This document shows, piece after piece, positions 3,256-12,482 of a stretch of DNA of 12,482 nt. Under the pieces are notes generated by a model. It was not told where the DNA came from, searched no databases, and was given only the letters and a program-made list of their open reading frames with translations. A program made the position numbers and the translations under genes. Origin of the DNA: Labilithrix luteola (GTDB lineage: Bacteria; Myxococcota_A; Polyangia; Polyangiales; Polyangiaceae); contig JAMFST010000122.1 of the NCBI GenBank assembly GCA_026225435.1, positions 1-12,482 on the forward strand, written 5' to 3'. How positions within the stretch are numbered: position 1 is the stretch's first letter; every line of letters begins with the position of its first letter.

Positions 3256-4578
3256 TCAGTGGCCGCTGTTGACCAGCGTCCCGCCCTTGGCGCGGATCGC
3301 GGTGTACGTGCTCGACCCCATCTGGACGCTGGGGCTGGCGCCGACCTTGAGGGTGACGTTCTTGGTCATCGCGACCAGGTGGCAGTCCGACTCCTCGATG
3401 ATGGTGGCGCTACCGGCCGACTGGTTGACCCACTTCTGGAAGAGGACCACGTGGTGGCCGCTGTTGAGCGCGTCGCCCGGCTGGAGGCTGGTGACGGGGA
3501 TGGCGGTGCTCTGGCTGGCCGAGAGCGGGGCCATCTGCTTGGTGGTCAGACCGGGGGCAGCCAGCCCCCAGGCGTAGCTCACCAGGCCGGAGCAGTCCGA
3601 GCGGTAGGCGTTCCACTGCGGATTGTTGGCGGCGCCGGTGCGCCGGCAGATGCCGCCGCAGATGGCGTCGGGGCCGTTGTTGACGCCGCCGCAGTAGGGG
3701 ACCTGCGCGGTGACCCAGGTGAGCGCGGTGGTCACGGCGTTGTTGTTGACGAGGGAGCCGGTCGCCGCGGGGGTGCTGCCCGGGGTGCTGCTCGACGAGG
3801 GCGAGCTGCTCGGGGTGGTCGACGAAGAAGGCGAGGAGGTCGACGGGGTGGTCGTCGAGCCCGGCGAGCTGACCAGGGGGGTTCCGCTGCTCGGCGAGGT
3901 GGTGCTCGGGCTGCCCGCCTGGACCATCGGCGTGCCGCCGAGCGGGAAGGAGACCACGACCTGTCCGTTCCCGAGCAGGCCGCCGCTCCCGCTGACGAGC
4001 GAGCCACCGCCTGCGTCGATGTTCACGGTGATGACGACACCGCCGCCGGAGCCGCTGCTGCCAGTCGTCCCCGTCGTCACCGACGCGGCGTCGCTGGCGT
4101 CACCTCCGTCGCCGGCATCACCCGCGTCGTCGCCCGTCACGACGAACAGGTCGTCCGGCTTCTCCGCCGCGAGGAGGCCGTTGCCGCCGTCGCCGCTGGT
4201 TCCGCTGGTGTCGGCCACCGTGGTGACCTGCGCGTCGCCCAGCGGGATGGTCGTCTTGCCGCCGCCATCGTCGTCGAGCACCACGCTGTCGCCGTCGACG
4301 GCGTAGCTGCCGGTGTGCACGCAGCCGCCGGGGGTGGTGTCGGCGTAGCAGTCGTTCTCGATCGCCTCGAAGCGGTCGTTCTCGAGGAACGTGATGCTGG
4401 CGAAGGGGGAGTCGCCGTCGTCCGAGTCGGCCGCGTAGGTCCCGCGCAACGGCCCCGTGGTCGCGGCGCCCAGCTCACCGCCCGACGAGGGGGACGAGCC
4501 GCTGCACGCGACGACGACCGAGGTGACGCAGGCGGCGAGGCCGAGGATGGCATGACGGAGGAAGCGCACGCCCCTCAC
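3256..4578 (-). CDS. NlpC/P60-type lipoprotein, putative cell-wall hydrolase
   Basis: A 440-residue predicted lipoprotein: signal peptide then lipobox VVAC with Cys25. Residues about 43-120 form a small beta-rich module (LRGTYAAD, ASITFLENDRFEAI, CVHTGSYAVDGDSVVL), resembling lipocalin-like repeats seen in myxobacterial surface proteins. Then come an Asp/Ala/Gly stretch (150-165) and a Ser/Thr/Pro linker (222-272). The C-terminal 150 residues fit an NlpC/P60-like cysteine peptidase: nucleophile Cys329 in RSDCSGLVSYAWGL and His375/376 in SGHHVVLF after LQPGD. The third catalytic residue is not certain. Substrate is presumed to be peptidoglycan peptides, but this is inferred from the family. 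GTG at 4578 is used; GTG at codon 4 has a better-placed AGGGG. Likely first gene of a three-gene envelope cluster. Confidence 0.82.
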   Translation of the reverse strand: MRGVRFLRHAILGLAACVTSVVVACSGSSPSSGGELGAATTGPLRGTYAADSDDGDSPFASITFLENDRFEAIENDCYADTTPGGCVHTGSYAVDGDSVVLDDDGGGKTTIPLGDAQVTTVADTSGTSGDGGNGLLAAEKPDDLFVVTGDDAGDAGDGGDASDAASVTTGTTGSSGSGGGVVITVNIDAGGGSLVSGSGGLLGNGQVVVSFPLGGTPMVQAGSPSTTSPSSGTPLVSSPGSTTTPSTSSPSSSTTPSSSPSSSSTPGSTPAATGSLVNNNAVTTALTWVTAQVPYCGGVNNGPDAICGGICRRTGAANNPQWNAYRSDCSGLVSYAWGLAAPGLTTKQMAPLSASQSTAIPVTSLQPGDALNSGHHVVLFQKWVNQSAGSATIIEESDCHLVAMTKNVTLKVGASPSVQMGSSTYTAIRAKGGTLVNSGH

Positions 4579-4731: not shown

Positions 4732-5160
4732 TCAGTGCGTGTGCGACGGATCCGGCTCGACCAGCTCGATGAGCACGCCGCCGGTCGCCTTCGGATGAAC
4801 GAAGGCCACCTTGTGCCCGCGTGCGCCGGAGCGCGGCGTCTCGTCGATGAGCGGGACGCCGAGCGCCTTCAGCGTCGCCAGCGCCTCCTCGATCCCCTCG
4901 ACCTCCACGGCGATGTGGTGCAGCCCCGGCCCCTTCTTCTCGAGGAACTTCGCCAGCCCGTCGTTCCCGTCTGTCCTGGCAGGCGAGATCAGCTCGATGC
5001 TGCTCTCGCCGATGGGCAGCAGCGCCGCCTCGGTCTTCTGCGAGGCGACCGTCTCGCGCACCTGCGACTCGAGCCCGAACGCCGCGCGGTACTTGGCGAG
5101 AGACTCGTCGATGTCGTTCACGGCAATGGCGACGTGGTCGATCTTCTTGATGCGGAGCAT
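4732..5160 (-). CDS. mce: Methylmalonyl-CoA / ethylmalonyl-CoA epimerase
   Basis: A 142-residue single vicinal-oxygen-chelate protein that interconverts the (R) and (S) epimers of methylmalonyl-CoA and, in the ethylmalonyl-CoA pathway, of ethylmalonyl-CoA. The metal-ligand pattern of the family is present: His9 in DHVAIAV, Glu56 in SSIELISP, His81/82 in GPGLHHIAVEV and Glu132 in GVLIELVEP. The family signature KVAFVHPKATGGVLIEL is well conserved and the length is normal. ATG at 5160 follows the hydratase stop by 43 bp on the same strand, so it is probably the last gene of the four-gene set. No strong Shine-Dalgarno is visible. Its position beside methylsuccinyl-CoA pathway genes suggests dual use on ethylmalonyl-CoA and on propionyl-CoA-derived methylmalonyl-CoA. 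Confidence 0.92.
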   Translation of the reverse strand: MLRIKKIDHVAIAVNDIDESLAKYRAAFGLESQVRETVASQKTEAALLPIGESSIELISPARTDGNDGLAKFLEKKGPGLHHIAVEVEGIEEALATLKALGVPLIDETPRSGARGHKVAFVHPKATGGVLIELVEPDPSHTH

Positions 5161-5203
5161 GGGATGGGGTTCCAGGTAGCGTCGAGGAGAAGGGTCGTCC
5201 AGC

Positions 5204-6322
5204 TCAGGCCGGGCGATTGCGAATCAGGAGCGTGCGGTCGATCTCGAAGACCTTGGCGTCGATCTTCTTGGCCGGCTCCTTCTTGCCGAGCTCCGCCTCG
5301 AACAGATCGGCGCCCCCGGCGAGCAGCTCCGCCGGCTTCACGTTCTTCGTCCCGACCAGGCGGAACTTGAGGATCTGCGCGTTCGGCCCGTGCGGCTCCT
5401 TGGCGAGGACCTTGGCGGCGGCGTAGAGCGTGTCTCCGGCGCCGACGCCGTTCGGGTGCGCGCCGTTGTCGAACGACAGGTCCCACAGCGCCTGCCCGGC
5501 GATGTCCCGGCTGGCGAGGGCGGCGACCCAGGCGAAGACGAGCCCACCGTAGACCACGCGCTTGCCGCTGAAGCTGCCGCCGTTCTGGGAGAACTGCTCG
5601 TCGAAGTGCAAGGGGTGGCTGTTGCGCACCAGCGCGGTAATGCCCATGTGCTCCGCGTCGCTCACCGTCTTGCCGAAGTCCGGCAGGATCACGTCGCCGA
5701 CGCTGAGCTCGTCGGCGAAGCCGGCAAAGCCCGCCAAGCGCCGCGGCACCATGCGCACGTCGCGGATCTCCGGCGGACAGTCGTGCGCCAGCGCCCCCAG
5801 CGCCGCCGGGCGCGCCGTCCCGGACGCGTGGAGCGCCTCGGGTCGAGTGAGCTCGGTCGCGCCGCTCGGCAACGCCCGCACCAGCGCCTTGCGCTCGAAG
5901 AGGCAGACGGTCTTGCCGCCGTCGGTCTCGAGCCCCGTCTCCACGTGGACCACGCCGCGGTCGCCGGAGCTGGCCTTCTTGCTGCCGATGACCCGGCTGT
6001 ACGCGGTGAGCGTGTCACCGGCGAAGGCCGCGTCGGGGAAGCGCACGTTGAGGTACGCGAGGTGGGCGATCGCCTGCTCGCTCACGTCGTGCACGCTGAA
6101 CGAGAGCGCGAAGTTCAGGAGCAAGAGCGGGTGCACCGGCCGGTCGCGGAAGCCGAGCTCGCGGGCGTAGCGCGTGCTGGCGTAGGTCGGCGTGGCGTCG
6201 AGGAAGGCGCTCTGGAACACCGCCACGTGCCCGGCGTCGACCGTCACGTCCCAGGGGTGCTCGTAGACGTCCCCTTCGTGGAACTCCTCGAGGAAGCGAC
6301 CGTAGCGAAAGCGCTTGTTCAT
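5204..6322 (-). CDS. mch: Mesaconyl-CoA hydratase (MaoC-like double hotdog)
   Basis: A 372-residue MaoC-superfamily protein expected to hydrate mesaconyl-CoA (2-methylfumaryl-CoA) to (2R,3S)-beta-methylmalyl-CoA. Two hotdog folds are visible: residues about 8-150 (GRFLEEFHEGD..., AGDTLTAYSRVIGSK) and 205-325 (VSDAEHMG, NSHPLHFDEQF, KRVVYGGLVFAW, GAGDTLYAAAKVL). The NxxPLH segment with His239 resembles the hydratase-2 active site. The VYGG and NGVGAGDT blocks match what I recall of Rhodobacter Mch, and the length is close to it. ATG at 6322 has a good GGAGG nine bases upstream, inside the end of mcd, and follows the mcd stop by four bases. A generic enoyl-CoA hydratase is the alternative, but the neighbours favour Mch. 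Confidence 0.85.
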   Translation of the reverse strand: MNKRFRYGRFLEEFHEGDVYEHPWDVTVDAGHVAVFQSAFLDATPTYASTRYARELGFRDRPVHPLLLLNFALSFSVHDVSEQAIAHLAYLNVRFPDAAFAGDTLTAYSRVIGSKKASSGDRGVVHVETGLETDGGKTVCLFERKALVRALPSGATELTRPEALHASGTARPAALGALAHDCPPEIRDVRMVPRRLAGFAGFADELSVGDVILPDFGKTVSDAEHMGITALVRNSHPLHFDEQFSQNGGSFSGKRVVYGGLVFAWVAALASRDIAGQALWDLSFDNGAHPNGVGAGDTLYAAAKVLAKEPHGPNAQILKFRLVGTKNVKPAELLAGGADLFEAELGKKEPAKKIDAKVFEIDRTLLIRNRPA

Positions 6323-6326
6323 TTGT

Positions 6327-7946
6327 TCAAACCTCCAGAAGACGGCGGGCGACGACGTGCGCCTGGATCTCGTTGGCGCCTTCGAAGATCGACAGGACGC
6401 GCGAATCGACGAGCAGGCGGCTGGCCGTGTACTCCTCGGCGAAGCCGTTGCCGCCGTGGATCTGCACCCCGGCGTCGGCCGCTTCCCAGGCGGCGCGGGT
6501 GGCGAGCAGCTTGGCCATGCCGGCCTCGAGGTCGCAGCGATCGCCGCTGTCCTTGCGGGTGGCGGCGTAGTGGGTGAGGACGCGCGCGGCTTGCACCGTG
6601 CACACCATGCGCGCCAGCTTCCGGGCCACGCGGGGGAAGCCGAGGATCGGCTGCCCGAACTGGATGCGCTCGCGGGCGTAGCTGGCCGCCTCGTCGAGCG
6701 CCGCCTGCGCCAGGCCGACGCCACGCGCCGCCGTCTGGATACGCGCGCTCTCGAAGGTGGTCATGAGCTGCTTGAAGCCCAGCCCTTCCTTCTCGCCGAG
6801 CAGGTTCTCCGCCGGCACCTTGAAGCCGTCGAAGGAGAGCTCGTACTCCTTCATCCCGCGGTACCCGAGCACGGTGATCTCGGTGCCACTGAGCCCCGGG
6901 TCGACGAAGTCGTCCTCCCGCCGCGTCTTGGGCGCGAGCAGCATCGACAGGCCGGCGTACCCCGGCTCCCCTTCCTTCGTCCGTACCAGCAGCGTCATCA
7001 GGTCGGCGCGCGCCGCGTGGGTGATCCAGGTCTTCTGCCCGCGGACGATCCAGGAGTCCCCCTCCTTCACCGCGCGCGTGCCGAGTCGAGCCAGGTCCGA
7101 GCCGTTGTTCGGCTCGGTGAACACCGCCGTCGGGATGATCTCCCCCGAGGCGAGCAGCGGAAGCCACTTCTCCTTCTGCGCCTGCGTTCCGCCCGCGAGG
7201 ATCAGCTCCGCGGCGATCTCCGAGCGCGTGCCCAGCGAGCCGACGCCGATGTACCCGCGCGACAGCTCCTCGGTCACCACGCACATGGCGACCTTGGACA
7301 TCCCGAGACCGCCGTGCTCCTCGGGGATGGTCAGCCCGAAGACGCCCAGCTCGGCCATCTTCGTGATCAGCTCCATCGGGATGAGGACGTCCTTGCGGTG
7401 GATGTCCTGCGCCAGCGGCTTCACCTCGCGGTCGACGAAGCGGCGGAACTCCTTGCGGGTCGCCGTCAGCGTGTCGTCCTCGAGCGCGAAGGCGTCGATC
7501 GCCTCGGTCGCCAGCGGGGCGTAGGCCTCGTAGGTCGTCTCCGCGTCGGCGAAGGCTTCGAGGTCCGGCCCGTACATTTCCAGGAGCTGCGCCGGGCTGA
7601 TCCCCAGCTCGGCGAGCGAGACGTTCTCGGTCTGCCCCAGGTTCACTCCGGCGCGCAGCTGGCGAAGGAGCTCGGCGGTGTAGGTGCGCACCAGGCGCTT
7701 CTCCGTCGACTCCTCCCCGCCCTTCACGCTGGCGACCTTCAGCTCCCAGGCAGCCAGCTGCTTCACCGCCGCGATCTCCGTCGCCAGGTAGGCGAGCGCG
7801 TGCGCCGCCATCTGGTTCGCGTCGAGCTTCTTGGCGCTGACCTTTCCGTTCTCGGTCACCTGCCCGAGGAGGTGCGCCTTCGCCTGCGCGAAGATCCGGT
7901 CGAGCGTCTCGATCGCCTGCGGGACAGCGGAGATCGTGGCGGCCAT
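6327..7946 (-). CDS. mcd: (2S)-methylsuccinyl-CoA dehydrogenase
   Basis: A 539-residue FAD acyl-CoA dehydrogenase expected to oxidise (2S)-methylsuccinyl-CoA to mesaconyl-CoA, passing electrons to electron-transfer flavoprotein. The catalytic core starts near residue 160, preceded by an unusually long, mostly helical N-terminal extension that ordinary acyl-CoA dehydrogenases (about 380-400 residues) lack and that is characteristic of Mcd. Core motifs: TEPNNGSDLA (277-286), TWITHAARAD (306-315), QIHGGNGFAEEY (495-506) and the catalytic-base region SIFEGANEIQ with Glu522. ATG at 7946 overlaps the stop of the lyase gene by one base (TGATG) and is followed four bases after its own stop by mch, so co-translation is likely. 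A different long acyl-CoA dehydrogenase is possible but unlikely in this context. Confidence 0.88.
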   Translation of the reverse strand: MAATISAVPQAIETLDRIFAQAKAHLLGQVTENGKVSAKKLDANQMAAHALAYLATEIAAVKQLAAWELKVASVKGGEESTEKRLVRTYTAELLRQLRAGVNLGQTENVSLAELGISPAQLLEMYGPDLEAFADAETTYEAYAPLATEAIDAFALEDDTLTATRKEFRRFVDREVKPLAQDIHRKDVLIPMELITKMAELGVFGLTIPEEHGGLGMSKVAMCVVTEELSRGYIGVGSLGTRSEIAAELILAGGTQAQKEKWLPLLASGEIIPTAVFTEPNNGSDLARLGTRAVKEGDSWIVRGQKTWITHAARADLMTLLVRTKEGEPGYAGLSMLLAPKTRREDDFVDPGLSGTEITVLGYRGMKEYELSFDGFKVPAENLLGEKEGLGFKQLMTTFESARIQTAARGVGLAQAALDEAASYARERIQFGQPILGFPRVARKLARMVCTVQAARVLTHYAATRKDSGDRCDLEAGMAKLLATRAAWEAADAGVQIHGGNGFAEEYTASRLLVDSRVLSIFEGANEIQAHVVARRLLEV

Positions 7947-9004
7947 CAGGAGATCCCCAGCTCCTTGGCGATCGCCGGATCGAGCCGGCCGAGGGCGAAG
8001 GCCTGCTGCAGCGCCACGCGGTAGATGCGGTCGGTCGCGCGGTCGCTCATCTTGCCGTCGATCATGACGGCGCCGCGCCCTTCCTTCTCCGCCTGGATGA
8101 AGAGGCGCGCCGCGTCGACCGCCTCGGCGATCACCTTGTCGGCGATGCCGAACACCTCGAGCGCGATCTGCGTCTGCGCCGGGATGCCGGTCCACTTGCC
8201 GCGGAAGCCGAACGACTTGGCCAGCTCCGCGTCGTGGCGGCACTCCTCGAGCGCCGCCTCCTGCTGCTCCGGCGTCTTGTCCTTGGTCGGGTAGTTCAGG
8301 GTCATCTCGCTGATCGCCGGGATGCCGACCGAGGCGGCCGCCTTGACGATGCGCGCGCGGGCGTGATCGACCAGCGGGTGCTCGGTGCGGTACGGCTCAC
8401 CGATCATGCGCAGCGAGCCCCAGTAATCGAAGGCGCCGAAGATGAGCCCCACGAGGCGGTCGCTGGCCTGGGCGATCTCGAAGACCTGCTCCTCGGCCGA
8501 CACGCTCTCGATGAGCACCTCGAACTTGATCTTCCCCTTGGGAAGGCCGAGCTCCTCTTCCAGCGCGGTGAGCGTCTGGTCGATGGAGCGCACCTCGTCG
8601 GCCGACTCCGCCTTCGGGTAGACGAGCCCATCGAGCTTGGCGCCGCACCCGCGCACGACGTAGGCGATGTCCGAGTGCGAGGGATCGAGCTCGAGGCCGC
8701 GCGGACGGAACGTCTTGATGCGACGCCCCCAGTCGAGATCGTTCACCGCCTTGATGACGTTGTCGCGCCCCTGCTTGAGGAGGTCGTCGTTGCCGCGGGG
8801 GATGCTGTCCTCGAGGTCGAGCATGACGAGGCTGGCCGCGCTCTTGGTCGCCGCCGTCTCGACGTACTTGGCGACGGTCGCCGGGGTGGTCAGGTGGGCC
8901 ATCTGCACCAGCCACTTGGCCGGCACGTCCCGCTCGCGCGCGGACTCCCGCTCGATCAGCTTCTGGTTGCGTGCGCGGGCCTGCTCCTCGATCGACGTCG
9001 TCAT
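7946..9004 (-). CDS. mcl1: CitE-family lyase, probable beta-methylmalyl-CoA lyase
   Basis: A 352-residue HpcH/HpaI-CitE superfamily protein, expected to cleave beta-methylmalyl-CoA to glyoxylate and propionyl-CoA, and perhaps to handle malyl-CoA. Family landmarks are LVMLDLEDSIP (59-69), FEVLIES with Glu166 and GAFDYWGS with Asp193, positions matching the Mg-binding Glu and Asp of Rhodobacter Mcl1, and GKWTGIPAQTQIA near 269-281. The substrate-binding Arg region reads FRPRGLE (Arg100/Arg102) rather than the usual VRxNG, and the late GKWxIHPxQ motif is altered, so this is a divergent member. The symbol is therefore provisional. ATG at 9004 fits the domain start; no Shine-Dalgarno is present. 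It is the first gene of the set. Confidence 0.8.
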   Translation of the reverse strand: MTTSIEEQARARNQKLIERESARERDVPAKWLVQMAHLTTPATVAKYVETAATKSAASLVMLDLEDSIPRGNDDLLKQGRDNVIKAVNDLDWGRRIKTFRPRGLELDPSHSDIAYVVRGCGAKLDGLVYPKAESADEVRSIDQTLTALEEELGLPKGKIKFEVLIESVSAEEQVFEIAQASDRLVGLIFGAFDYWGSLRMIGEPYRTEHPLVDHARARIVKAAASVGIPAISEMTLNYPTKDKTPEQQEAALEECRHDAELAKSFGFRGKWTGIPAQTQIALEVFGIADKVIAEAVDAARLFIQAEKEGRGAVMIDGKMSDRATDRIYRVALQQAFALGRLDPAIAKELGIS

Positions 9005-9095: not shown

Positions 9096-9725
9096 ATGGC
9101 CTTTTTTGGTGAGTCGACACAGGGATTGCTTGGACTTGGTGCGCTCGCGCTCGTGAGCATGGGATCGGTGGGCTGCAAGAGCCTGGCGCCCCCCTTCGAC
9201 GCCATGCGGGGCCAGCCGGTCACCGTGCTGCGCCTGCAGAACTACGAGCCGCCGGCCGCCGCCGCGCCGCAAGCCGCGTCGATCCAGCTCCCGGCGCAGA
9301 TCCAGGGCTGGCTCACCGCCGGCGCCCAGCTCCTTCCGCCGGGGCTTCTGCCGCCGGGGCTCCTGCCGGGCAGCGCGCCCGCCGCGCCGGTCTCCAACGA
9401 TCTGCGCTTCCACAACTTCCGCATCCTCGGCTCGACCGGGCTGACCGCCGCCTCGGATCGTGACGAGGTGCTCGACATCTTCGGCCACCAGGGGAACTTC
9501 GACTCGCGCCCGGCGACCTGCATGTACGCCGAGTTCGGCTTCGCCATCGGCCAGCTGCAGGCGCAGCCGGGCGTCGGCACCCAGGACATCCTCGTGAGCC
9601 TCTCCTGCGAGCAGGTCCAGGCGTTCAACTTCAACTGGCCGTACCCCTCGGCCACCGCCATCCCCACCGACACGGCCAAGCGCATCGTGGCGATCGCGCA
9701 GAAGGCCTTCGGCGGCGGCGCCTGA
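9096..9725 (+). CDS. Putative lipoprotein of unknown function
   Basis: A 209-residue protein with a hydrophobic N-terminus (GLLGLGALALVSMG) ending in SVGC with Cys27, a plausible though not perfect lipobox. A proline-rich spacer carries a repeated PPGLL (residues about 81-92). The C-terminal domain, about residues 105-205 (NDLRFHNFRILGS, DEVLDIFGHQGNFDSRPATCMY, QDILVSLSCEQVQAFNFNWPY), looks folded, with two further cysteines, but I recognise no family. The gene stop is one base before the inferred start of corA, so the two are probably one operon. The ATG follows a weak promoter-like element directly and has no Shine-Dalgarno. An envelope role beside a Mg transporter is only suggested by position. 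Confidence 0.75.
   Translation: MAFFGESTQGLLGLGALALVSMGSVGCKSLAPPFDAMRGQPVTVLRLQNYEPPAAAAPQAASIQLPAQIQGWLTAGAQLLPPGLLPPGLLPGSAPAAPVSNDLRFHNFRILGSTGLTAASDRDEVLDIFGHQGNFDSRPATCMYAEFGFAIGQLQAQPGVGTQDILVSLSCEQVQAFNFNWPYPSATAIPTDTAKRIVAIAQKAFGGGA
9336..9370 (+). repeat. 15-bp tandem repeat encoding PPGLL
   Basis: Two near-identical 15-bp units (9336-9350 and 9351-9365, one mismatch) plus a partial third encode PPGLLPPGLLPG in the linker of the lipoprotein. The repeat keeps the frame, so copy-number changes would alter only linker length. Confidence 0.7.
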
Positions 9726-9726
9726 T

Positions 9727-10728
9727 CTGATCTCCACGTATCCGGTCGAAGGAGACATCGCCGGCGCGAGCTGGATCGATCTCCTCGACGCTACCCCGGA
9801 CGAGTGCCGGCAGATCGAGCAGCAGCGCGGTCTGCGGGTGCCGTCACGTGCGAGCATCGAGGAGATCGAGGCCACCAGCCGCGCCTACGCGGAGAAGGGC
9901 GCGCTCTACCTGTCGACGTCGCTCCCCACGCGGAACCACGGCAGCGACCCGGTCGACACCGAGGAGATGCACGACGGCTCCGGCGTCACCTACGTCGGCT
10001 TCGCCCTCTCGGACGAGCTGCTGCTCACGGTGCGCTTCGCTCACATGCCGGCGTTCGACCTCATCGCCCAGCACGCGCGCGACGAGGCCGACGACAAGGC
10101 CGCCCCCTGGGACATCCTCCTGCGCATCGTCGAGAAGATCGTCGACCTCACCGCCGACCGGCTCGAGACCATCGCCGCCGGTCTCTCCGAGATCTCCCAC
10201 GAGACGTTCCGCGCCGACCGCGCCGGCGACAGCGGGAGCACCCGCCGTCAGCGCCGCAGTCCGGCGGTCGTCAGCAAGAAGCTGCGCGGAGCCCTCCGTC
10301 GCCTCGGCACCATCGGTGATCTGCTCTGGGAGGCGCGCGACAGCCTCACCGGCATGATGCGCATCGCCCACCGCCTGGCCGACGAGCACTCGGCCTCGCT
10401 GATGGGGACCGGCCAGCCGCGGGTCGAGCCGATCATGCTCGATCTCAAGTCGCTCAGCGACAGCCGCGAGCAGCTCTCGGGCAAGGTCCAGTTCCTCCTC
10501 GACGCGACGCTCGGCTTCATCAACATCGAGCAGAACGACATCGTGCAGACGCTCACCGTCGCCTCGGTGGCCGGCATCCCGCCGGTGCTGGTGGCGGGCG
10601 TCTACGGGATGAACTTCCAGCACATGCCGGAGCTGTCGTGGCGCCTCGGCTACCCGCTGGCGCTGGGGATGATCGTGGTGACGGCGATCATCCCGGTCCT
10701 CTGGTTCAAGGCCCGGGGCTGGATGTGA
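9727..10728 (+). CDS. corA: CorA-family magnesium/divalent cation transporter
   Basis: An inner-membrane Mg2+ (Co2+/Ni2+) channel protein. The C-terminus has the signature YGMNF (GMN at 294-296 counting from 9727), a first membrane helix at about 272-292, a PEL-W-LGYP loop and a second helix at about 310-328, ending in basic residues. Charged helices at 130-260 fit the cytoplasmic stalk. The conserved CorA N-terminus (SWIDLLDATPDE..., RVPSRASIEEIEATSRAYAEKGALYLS) is fully encoded from about 9730, yet this frame has no ATG, GTG or TTG before GTG 9838. I place the start at CTG 9727, giving 333 residues, the family's normal length. GTG 9838 would delete 37 residues including conserved ones. The gene follows a lipoprotein gene by one base and overlaps the next gene by four. 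Confidence 0.88.
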   Translation: MISTYPVEGDIAGASWIDLLDATPDECRQIEQQRGLRVPSRASIEEIEATSRAYAEKGALYLSTSLPTRNHGSDPVDTEEMHDGSGVTYVGFALSDELLLTVRFAHMPAFDLIAQHARDEADDKAAPWDILLRIVEKIVDLTADRLETIAAGLSEISHETFRADRAGDSGSTRRQRRSPAVVSKKLRGALRRLGTIGDLLWEARDSLTGMMRIAHRLADEHSASLMGTGQPRVEPIMLDLKSLSDSREQLSGKVQFLLDATLGFINIEQNDIVQTLTVASVAGIPPVLVAGVYGMNFQHMPELSWRLGYPLALGMIVVTAIIPVLWFKARGWM

Positions 10729-11405: not shown

Positions 11406-12236
11406 TCACTGAGCGTCGGCGCCGGCGAGGAGCGAGTTGCCGGTGGCCAGACGGAGCGCGGCGCGCGAGGCGGCGAGGCTGGAGTCGGCCTGGATGCGCC
11501 CCACGTCGGCGGCGACGGCGTCGCGGTTGGCCTGGATGGCCTCGAGCTGCGTGCCCACGCCCTTGGAGTAGCGATCCTTCGCCAGGTCCGCTTCGAGATG
11601 CGCCGCCTTCGAGCGCGCGTCGGCCGCCTTGGCCTGGACGATGTCCGCGTGGACCGTCCACCACGCCTGGTGGATGTCGTCGCCGGTCTGGATGCGTGAC
11701 CGCTCGTCGCGGACCTTGGCGACCTCGTTGGCCTCGCCCTGCGCCCGGATCTGCGGCTCGTTGGCGAAGTCGAGGTTCCAGGCGAGCTGCGCGCTGATCG
11801 TGTAGTCCGCGCTGTGGCCGAGGTAGAAGCCGTTCGCGTTGGTGACGTGCTCCACGCCCGAGGCCGAGAGCGCCGGCACCAGCGCGAGCTTGGCGGCGTT
11901 GGCGTTCGAGTCGGCCGCCTGCGCGTTCAGGCGCGCGACCTGCTCCGCCGGCGTCTGCCCTCCGCGGCTCTCCCAGGTCTCCAGCGACGCCTCCTCGTGC
12001 GCGTCGTCGAAGGCGAGCCCCTGGTCGGGCGCGACCTCGTCGTTGGGCGTGAGGCCGGTGAGCGTGGTCAGCTGGCGGCGCGACAGCTCGCGCTGCAGCT
12101 CGGCGTTGGCGACGTTCTGCTCCTGGGTCGCCACCTCGGCGAGCGCCTGCTGCACGTCGACCTCGGCGGCCACGCCGGCGGCGCGCTGCGACTGGGCGAT
12201 GCGCAGGTTCTCCTGCGCGGCAGCGAGCGCCACATG
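11406..12236 (-). CDS. TolC-family outer membrane efflux protein, N-terminally incomplete
   Basis: The roughly 275 residues from 12236 to the TGA at 11406 match the latter part of an outer-membrane efflux channel. The end of the first coiled-coil repeat is present (ENLRIAQSQRAAGVAAEVDV, ALAEVATQEQNV, RRQLTTLTGL). The second repeat follows, with a beta-strand insertion (LVPALSASGVEHVTNANGFYLG, ISAQLAWNLDF) and helices through DRYSKGVGTQLEAIQANRD to the C-terminus. Such proteins are usually 430-500 residues, so the signal peptide and first helices are missing. They would be expected upstream, where unrelated sequence is joined in frame. Codons are almost all G/C-ending, like the rest of the window. 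A role in tripartite efflux or type I secretion is inferred from the family. Confidence 0.82.
   Translation of the reverse strand, partial: HVALAAAQENLRIAQSQRAAGVAAEVDVQQALAEVATQEQNVANAELQRELSRRQLTTLTGLTPNDEVAPDQGLAFDDAHEEASLETWESRGGQTPAEQVARLNAQAADSNANAAKLALVPALSASGVEHVTNANGFYLGHSADYTISAQLAWNLDFANEPQIRAQGEANEVAKVRDERSRIQTGDDIHQAWWTVHADIVQAKAADARSKAAHLEADLAKDRYSKGVGTQLEAIQANRDAVAADVGRIQADSSLAASRAALRLATGNSLLAGADAQ
12213..12236. other. Chimeric junction, E1 beta to TolC
   Basis: Protein homology switches between VHVALAA (fits E1 beta) and ALAAAQENLRIAQ (fits TolC). The shared ALAA-coding GC-rich stretch could be the microhomology behind a misassembly or a recombination. Codon usage changes at the same point. 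Confidence 0.65.
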
Positions 12237-12482
12237 CACCATCGTGCCATAGGCAAGTACCGTAACCTCCGTCCCTGCCCGTGCGATCGCCGCCTTGCCG
12301 AGCGGGACCGCATAATGGCCTTCGGGAACCTCGCTGGCGGCATGACCAGCCCAGGATACCGCGGGTCGGTCCGGATGACCGTCGAACGGTCCAGCGTAGA
12401 GGCGCTTTGGCTCGAGAAAAATGATGGGGTCGTCGTCCTCGATCGAGGCGATCAGCAATCCTTTGGCGTCATAGGGGTTGGA
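12237..12482 (-). CDS. Alpha-keto-acid dehydrogenase E1 beta subunit fragment
   Basis: The same frame continues to the window edge and encodes about 82 residues typical of the beta subunit of branched-chain 2-oxoacid (or pyruvate) dehydrogenase E1: SNPYDAKGLLIASIEDDDP, IFLEPKRLY, VPEGHYAVPLGKAAIARAG and EVTVLAYGTMVHVA, the linker into the transketolase C-terminal domain. Both ends are missing. By hand count about 26 of its 82 codons end in A or T, whereas the first 80 TolC codons after it have none, and its GC is near 62 percent. The style recalls Sphingomonadales-type alphaproteobacterial proteins. I read it as foreign sequence joined to the TolC gene. Confidence 0.75.

Follow-up and report, generated by a model that had tools for sequence, protein, structure and literature searches.

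A lyase–mcd–mch–epi gene run of Labilithrix luteola as the probable lower half of an ethylmalonyl-CoA pathway

The stretch of Labilithrix luteola DNA analyzed here, contig JAMFST010000122.1 with a length of 12,482 nucleotides (the window), carries a run of four minus-strand genes. Very probably, this run is the lower half of the ethylmalonyl-CoA (EMC) pathway, used for acetyl-CoA assimilation. The run opens with an mcl-like gene (7946..9004) encoding a CitE-like C–C lyase of 352 amino acids, the proposed beta-methylmalyl-CoA/malyl-CoA lyase. It is followed by mcd (6327..7946), encoding a (2S)-methylsuccinyl-CoA dehydrogenase of 539 amino acids with an N-terminal extension, which was assigned by its match to structure 6es9 and by its specificity residues. 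The third gene, mch (5204..6322), encodes a mesaconyl-CoA hydratase of 372 amino acids with a MaoC-type double domain, a divergent subfamily recognized by PF19315. The last, epi (4732..5160), encodes a methylmalonyl-/ethylmalonyl-CoA epimerase of 142 amino acids, recognized by TIGR03081. The lyase gene and mcd overlap by 1 base, as the final A of the lyase stop codon also begins the mcd start codon ATG; mcd and mch are separated by 4 bases (TGA-ACAA-ATG), and mch and epi by 43 bases. A sequence-only reading of the window, made by a model, had given this overlap and these gaps, and rechecking of the reading frames found them right to the base. The same reading let the run cover the steps from methylsuccinyl-CoA to glyoxylate plus propionyl-CoA. 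Sequence comparison supports this, with the qualification that Mch and the lyase, although of the right families, belong to divergent subfamilies.

The chemistry of the EMC pathway is established knowledge, and the pathway itself is established in Alphaproteobacteria (Rhodobacter, Paracoccus, Methylobacterium) and in Streptomyces. In the proposed scheme, crotonyl-CoA carboxylase/reductase (Ccr), encoded on another contig (C1307), would carboxylate crotonyl-CoA to ethylmalonyl-CoA, which the epimerase and an ethylmalonyl-CoA mutase (Ecm)-type enzyme would convert to (2S)-methylsuccinyl-CoA. Mcd would oxidize this compound to mesaconyl-C1-CoA, using FAD and passing electrons to the electron-transfer flavoprotein. 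Hydration by Mch would then give beta-methylmalyl-CoA, to be cleaved by the CitE-like lyase into propionyl-CoA and glyoxylate. Malate synthase G would join glyoxylate and a further acetyl-CoA to malate, while propionyl-CoA would be carboxylated and then turned into succinyl-CoA by the same epimerase and methylmalonyl-CoA mutase. We infer the substrate specificities, above all those of the lyase and Mch, as well as the direction of flux and the co-transcription of the genes. Judged from its sequence, the pathway is real and probably working in this uncultured member of the Polyangiaceae or near kin. The position of Mcd in the EMC pathway is given in passages of two papers (PMC12290011; PMC5798300).

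An EMC core in Myxococcota is not new, because passages of one paper (PMC10576062) state a near-complete EMC pathway with ccr for the uncultured Myxococcota member Ca. Houyibacterium oceanica. That organism resembles the window genome in its phylum, in the presence of ccr and in an EMC claim drawn from genome annotation. In the passages seen, the account is a single KEGG annotation statement, with neither gene order nor lyase analysis (PMC10576062). The notable part of the present case is a lower half that, by sequence, appears as a variant with divergent Mch and lyase, together with an apparent exchange of lyase types within one order. The alphaproteobacterial pathway has Ccr, Ecm-type mutase and Mcd of the same kind, with the same Mcd residues. 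Unlike it, the window has a divergent Mch and lyase and combines lyase, mcd, mch and epi in one run, with malate synthase G predicted to act on glyoxylate.

The dehydrogenase and the upper half of the pathway

The best match of the window Mcd among solved structures is 6es9, with 555 bits over residues 5–538 and hence with the N-terminal extension included. We take 6es9 to be the methylsuccinyl-CoA dehydrogenase of P. denitrificans (PdMCD). The entry 8ciw, likewise a long form and deposited under the name (2S)-methylsuccinyl-CoA dehydrogenase, scores 284 bits. The published numbering of PdMCD fits 6es9 residue by residue (PMC5798300). For PdMCD, passages of that paper assign Arg252, Arg376 and Arg421 to the carboxylate, Ala285 and Phe287 to the methyl pocket and Glu535 to the catalytic base, and name Trp318, Thr320 and Glu380 as well (PMC5798300). 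In the window Mcd, R241, A274, F276, W307 and T309 correspond to R252, A285, F287, W318 and T320, and R363, E367, R408 and E522 to R376, E380, R421 and E535. The window Mcd, all 23 myxobacterial rows of the alignment (21 distinct) and 72/72 alphaproteobacterial rows share these nine residues as well as Ser248 and Thr418. The window protein shows the features of the PdMCD type: an N-terminal extension of ~170 residues, the three arginines, Ala285, Phe287 and Glu535.

The sequence-only reading had proposed a tree of Mcd. In a tree of 48 rows, which took 21 of the 72 alphaproteobacterial rows and no sequences of assayed enzymes, the window Mcd pairs with that of a relative, G009 (97/88), among myxobacterial and alphaproteobacterial Mcd. 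The protein groups with alphaproteobacterial Mcd and has the published specificity residues. G009 is nearest both by tree path and by full-length score (68%); for the partial Mcd of G044, identity to the window is 78% over 338 columns. Of the 80 best sequences kept, 72 are alphaproteobacterial, and identity to these is 54–60% over the best segment. The myxobacterial rows are paraphyletic with respect to the alphaproteobacterial clade, yet no direction of transfer is drawn from this, because midpoint rooting places the root on a very long paralogue branch. The mcd-like paralogues of G005, G018 and G035 were considered as further Mcds and set aside, as none of them keeps Ala285 or Glu380. The G018 protein (L066:8124-11244) no longer has the catalytic Glu, and of the three substrate arginines only one remains. 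Its gene adjoins a window-type mch; the genome encodes isocitrate lyase, and no ccr was detected in it at E<=1e-90.

In the draft genome, which comprises 6.80 Mb and 1502 contigs, the window is contig C350; completeness is 80.5% and estimated contamination 2.84%. Following the search for ccr and ecm that the sequence-only reading had advised, both Ccr and an Ecm-type mutase were located in this draft, so that the refutation which their absence would have brought did not come about. The ccr gene lies on C1307:1720-2877 (511.8–512.1 bits; cut-off 378.55), divergent from the mutase gene, which is truncated by the contig end. The mutase scores 438 bits against TIGR00641; against methylmalonyl-CoA mutase PRK09426 it stays at 390 bits, below the cut-off of 876. 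It matches mutases in 24/72 alphaproteobacterial mcd loci, 22 of them at 544–741 bits; the Ecm-type call was made without an Ecm-specific model. Further mutase pieces are found on C1165, with methylmalonyl-CoA mutase PRK09426 as the best match, and on C659, both truncated at contig ends. In addition, C981 carries a malate synthase G gene (1122 bits; cut-off 565) that is incomplete at the contig end. This gene was also considered as aceB of a cut aceBA operon, but it is a malate synthase G and only 24% identical to the aceB product of G017; an isocitrate lyase gene (aceA) lost in an assembly gap at C981 is therefore no longer a worry. The absence of aceA, also to be checked according to the sequence-only reading, holds as far as the 80.5%-complete assembly reaches: PF00463 has no match in the window genome (G000).

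Since the draft consists of 1502 contigs and has some estimated contamination, C1307 might derive from another organism and have been misbinned, leaving the pathway incomplete in this species. This is highly improbable. G009 is nearest not only for Mcd but, among the loci compared, also for Ccr (83%) and Ecm (71%), and it carries all three, with the same divergent ccr/mutase pair; because one relative is nearest for all three alike, misbinning is unlikely. Moreover, C1307 and the window have a similar G+C content (0.708 and 0.705), as have most other contigs examined.

The upper half also bears on a degradative role of the run, in which methylsuccinate, mesaconate or itaconate (C5-dicarboxylates) would be broken down instead of acetyl-CoA being assimilated. 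In favor of such a role, Mch weakly resembles RipB/Ich (92.9 bits; cut-off 340) and the lyase weakly resembles RipC (81.6 bits; cut-off 375), which are proteins of itaconate degradation. We give it very little credence, as the run has no CoA transferase, the closest match of Mcd is 6es9, an EMC enzyme, and ccr and the Ecm-type mutase are present.

Co-occurrence and gene order among relatives

Fifty-nine genomes were compared, the window genome included: 37 of one family and 22 from other families of the order. Mcd was counted as present above 540 bits, which holds for 16/59 genomes; the next genome drops to 350 bits. Mch (E<=1e-20) is found in 16/16 mcd genomes and in 6/43 genomes without mcd, and ccr (E<=1e-90) in 13/16 vs. 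5/43. Isocitrate lyase shows the opposite distribution, with 1/16 mcd genomes vs. 29/43 (27/43 when the partial hits in G002 and G005 are left out). The corresponding Fisher values, 2.3e-5 and 9.0e-5 without the two partial hits, ignore kinship. The malate synthase C-terminal domain occurs in 2/16 mcd genomes (the window genome and G009) and in 27/43 others. The EMC pathway thus probably stands in for the glyoxylate bypass in mcd genomes. For the window genome, the suggestion of C2 assimilation without isocitrate lyase is supported by ccr and the Ecm-type mutase and, as far as the incomplete assembly reaches, by the lack of a detectable aceA. In a wider sample, Mcd (E<=1e-150) was detected in 23/282 Myxococcota genomes, all 23 from the same order as above. 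The analysis places the EMC pathway within this order, where it would largely replace the glyoxylate bypass.

Several observations count against this interpretation. The Fisher values overstate the association, because the relatives are kin to each other. The lack of aceA in the window genome is weak evidence, given that the assembly is incomplete and fragmented. No ccr was detected at E<=1e-90 in three of the mcd genomes (G044, G045 and G051). G009 has mcd and, on contig C69, a long-form isocitrate lyase. Finally, a full isocitrate lyase is also missing from 16/43 genomes without mcd; therefore, its lack alone does not demand an EMC pathway. As to the genomes named here, mcd and mch are both present in G044, G045 and G051, the latter two of which also have an Ecm-type mutase gene divergent from mcd. 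In G009, an aceA lying beside aceB (L103:7649-8469) is without ~180 residues and has a frame change.

Myxobacteria produce many polyketides, and the main task of the genes could be to feed or deplete the ethylmalonyl-CoA and methylmalonyl-CoA that serve as polyketide extender units; Mcd, Mch and lyase would then be an overflow recycling ethylmalonyl-CoA. The presence of ccr without mcd in 5/59 genomes (G005, G006, G019, G022 and G035) would fit such a role there. For the window genome it is improbable: ccr and an Ecm-type mutase gene form a divergent pair, extender units need neither a full lower half nor malate synthase G, and isocitrate lyase is mostly absent from mcd genomes.

Gene order differs among the genomes. 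The lyase, mcd and mch genes are adjacent in the window, G016 and G037, and mcd and mch in G009, G012, G020, G032, G044, G054 and G056; because the same neighbors recur in relatives, the run is not a product of chance. G016 has the order ccr-lyase-mcd-mch, provided that two contig ends (299-base overlap, 99.0%) represent one place. The order ecm-ccr-mcd is found in G040, G049, L117, L119 and L121, and ecm and ccr are divergent in the window genome, G009, G050 and G054. Within the fetched stretches, an Ecm-type mutase was found for 12/16 mcd genomes; none occurs in those of G012, G016, G027 and G044, the remainder of these genomes not having been searched. The epimerase scores 141 bits against the methylmalonyl-CoA epimerase model TIGR03081 (cut-off 114.95), and the orthologous gene comes immediately after mch in G050 and 3 kb downstream of it in G009. 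A 10.2-kb region of G009 contains, as in the window, the lipoprotein gene, mcd, mch, epi, the PEGA protein gene and thrC; this otherwise matching region has no lyase gene. The suggestion of a Myxococcota host fits as well: mcd of G032, a member of the window genome's family, is identical to that of Polyangiaceae bacterium isolate SJ329.

A divergent hydratase and a possibly exchanged lyase

Both Mch and the lyase are ~30% identical to characterized enzymes. Given this distance from characterized members, their roles are proposed from fold, catalytic residues and the surrounding genes. Mch matches the mesaconyl-CoA hydratase family PF19315 with 77.7 bits (cut-off 26.5), and N234, H239 and D241 are invariant in 13/13 aligned sequences. 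It has this family and the N-x4-H-[FY]-D core in common with the Chloroflexus mesaconyl-CoA hydratase (4e3e) and with 8hgn, but scores only 116 and 119 bits against these structures, respectively. The other Mch type of the order, present in G049, is far closer to 4e3e (410 bits). In 72 alphaproteobacterial mcd loci, Mch of either type was not found within the flanks fetched (E<=1e-8). Mesaconyl-CoA hydratase and malyl-CoA lyase chemistry is also used in the 3-hydroxypropionate bi-cycle of Chloroflexus, and is thus common to that cycle and the window; unlike the bi-cycle, Ccr, Ecm and Mcd here point to the EMC pathway.

The lyase belongs to the CitE-like/HpcH family (PF03328, 73.4 bits). The best match of its predicted fold is the malyl-CoA lyase of R. 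sphaeroides, and the lid is present. Seven catalytic positions are named in passages on that enzyme: Asp42, Glu44, Asp45, Arg76, Glu141, Asp168 and Asp299 (PMC3832036). Mapped by hand onto an alignment with solved lyases, all seven are kept in 42/42 rows. Fold, lid and catalytic positions are shared with the malyl-CoA lyases of R. sphaeroides (4l9y), M. extorquens (5ugr) and Chloroflexus (4l7z). The window lyase differs from these three by its low identity, by a separate clade, by Phe/Tyr for Ala before the Mg-binding Asp and by its similarity to the malate synthase barrel. In a tree without sequences of assayed enzymes, in which the R. sphaeroides sequence is not among the rows, the window type forms a clade of its own (100/99), beside Chloroflexus-type and alphaproteobacterial malyl-CoA lyases. 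It lies outside a clade (98/94) that unites Chloroflexus-type, alphaproteobacterial and CitE-like rows, with a flag for long branches meeting. From predicted fold and alignment, the window lyase would work like a malyl-CoA lyase, although it is not assigned to the R. sphaeroides and Chloroflexus groups.

Three of these features speak against the assignment of the lower half: the separate clade of the lyase, its Phe192 at a position reported as Ala in malyl-CoA lyases, and the only 33% identity of the window Mch to the Chloroflexus-type Mch of a relative. The residue in question aligns with Leu454 of malate synthase G, presumably the residue before the Mg-binding Asp. Throughout the clade the expected Ala is replaced by an aromatic residue, i.e., Phe in 20 and Tyr in 22 of the 42 rows; malate synthase A of G009 has Trp there. 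Furthermore, the lyase matches the malate synthase barrel PF01274 (55.6 bits), unlike one Chloroflexus-type and two alphaproteobacterial malyl-CoA lyases, which have no match at E<=1e-3. These similarities would fit an enzyme acting on acetyl-CoA and glyoxylate, malyl-CoA lyase- or malate synthase-like, with the propionyl-CoA step left to another enzyme. We regard this as unlikely. The best fold match is a malyl-CoA lyase, and malate synthase G is already in the genome. The only other PF03328 match of the genome (E<=1e-5), on C1343, groups with CitE/RipC-like lyases. Moreover, the window-type lyase adjoins mcd in all three mcd genomes that have it, and lies between ccr and mcd in G016. A role of the window lyase in cleaving beta-methylmalyl-CoA is thus preferred.

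Window-type lyase genes without a strong mcd occur in G029 (L105) and G042 (L106), both with isocitrate lyase, and mch beside epi without a strong mcd in G029 (L105) and G013 (L108), again in genomes having isocitrate lyase. Such genes may be leftovers of the pathway or have another use. Plasmid records matching the lyase number 287, all below 60% identity and at most 37% among the matches listed.

The 16 mcd genomes differ in their lyases. The window type is found in 3 and other PF03328 lyases in 7, of which the three examined are of the Chloroflexus type and G051 has a weak single match. The remaining 6, exactly those without a PF03328 match, have DUF6986, a family with no assigned function; it is present at L251 (G009), L253 (G050), L255 (G020), L258 (G044), L259 (G056) and L261 (G012), where it is a candidate lyase. 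DUF6986 as an enzyme exclusive to the EMC pathway was rejected, as 26/43 genomes without mcd have a strong match. A literature search, with subscription journals outside its scope, found no paper on DUF6986. We tentatively consider that beta-methylmalyl-CoA lyase may have been exchanged among non-orthologous enzymes of the CitE/malate-synthase fold within one order, and that the window type and DUF6986 could be bifunctional, combining lyase and malate synthase. A joint activity may hold for both because they share an aromatic-Asp-Tyr motif with malate synthase A. If real, it would explain why 14/16 mcd genomes have no malate synthase C-terminal domain. Two testable enzyme assignments result, one for a divergent operon-encoded lyase and one for DUF6986, which gains a candidate function. 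As stated in passages of PMC12290011, the synthetic CO2-fixation cycle CETCH employs the Mcd-Mch-lyase module; alternative enzymes could be of practical use in it.

Flanking genes of the window

Beyond the run, the window contains the threonine synthase gene thrC (up to 1715), a gene for a PEGA/TPR protein (3234-2128) and a CorA transporter gene (9838-10728). A lipoprotein-like frame (9096-9725, plus strand) is divergent from the lyase-mcd-mch-epi run; a relative with 61% identity is likewise divergent from mcd in G009. On the minus strand, 3256-4578 encodes a predicted secreted Ser/Thr-rich protein, of which a C-terminal stretch is weakly NlpC/P60-like (E 0.073, under the cut-off). A promoter scan of the window gave no consensus promoter. 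Three terminator-like sites were found, all on the opposite strand and uninformative compared with the 1.9 expected. At the contig end, a single minus-strand frame (11406-12482) combines a piece of pyruvate dehydrogenase E1-beta (residues 3-91) with a TolC-type efflux protein (80-348). The junction lies near 12225, within an Ala-Leu-Ala-Ala-Ala stretch, and the joined frame is probably a misassembly or a deletion fusion.

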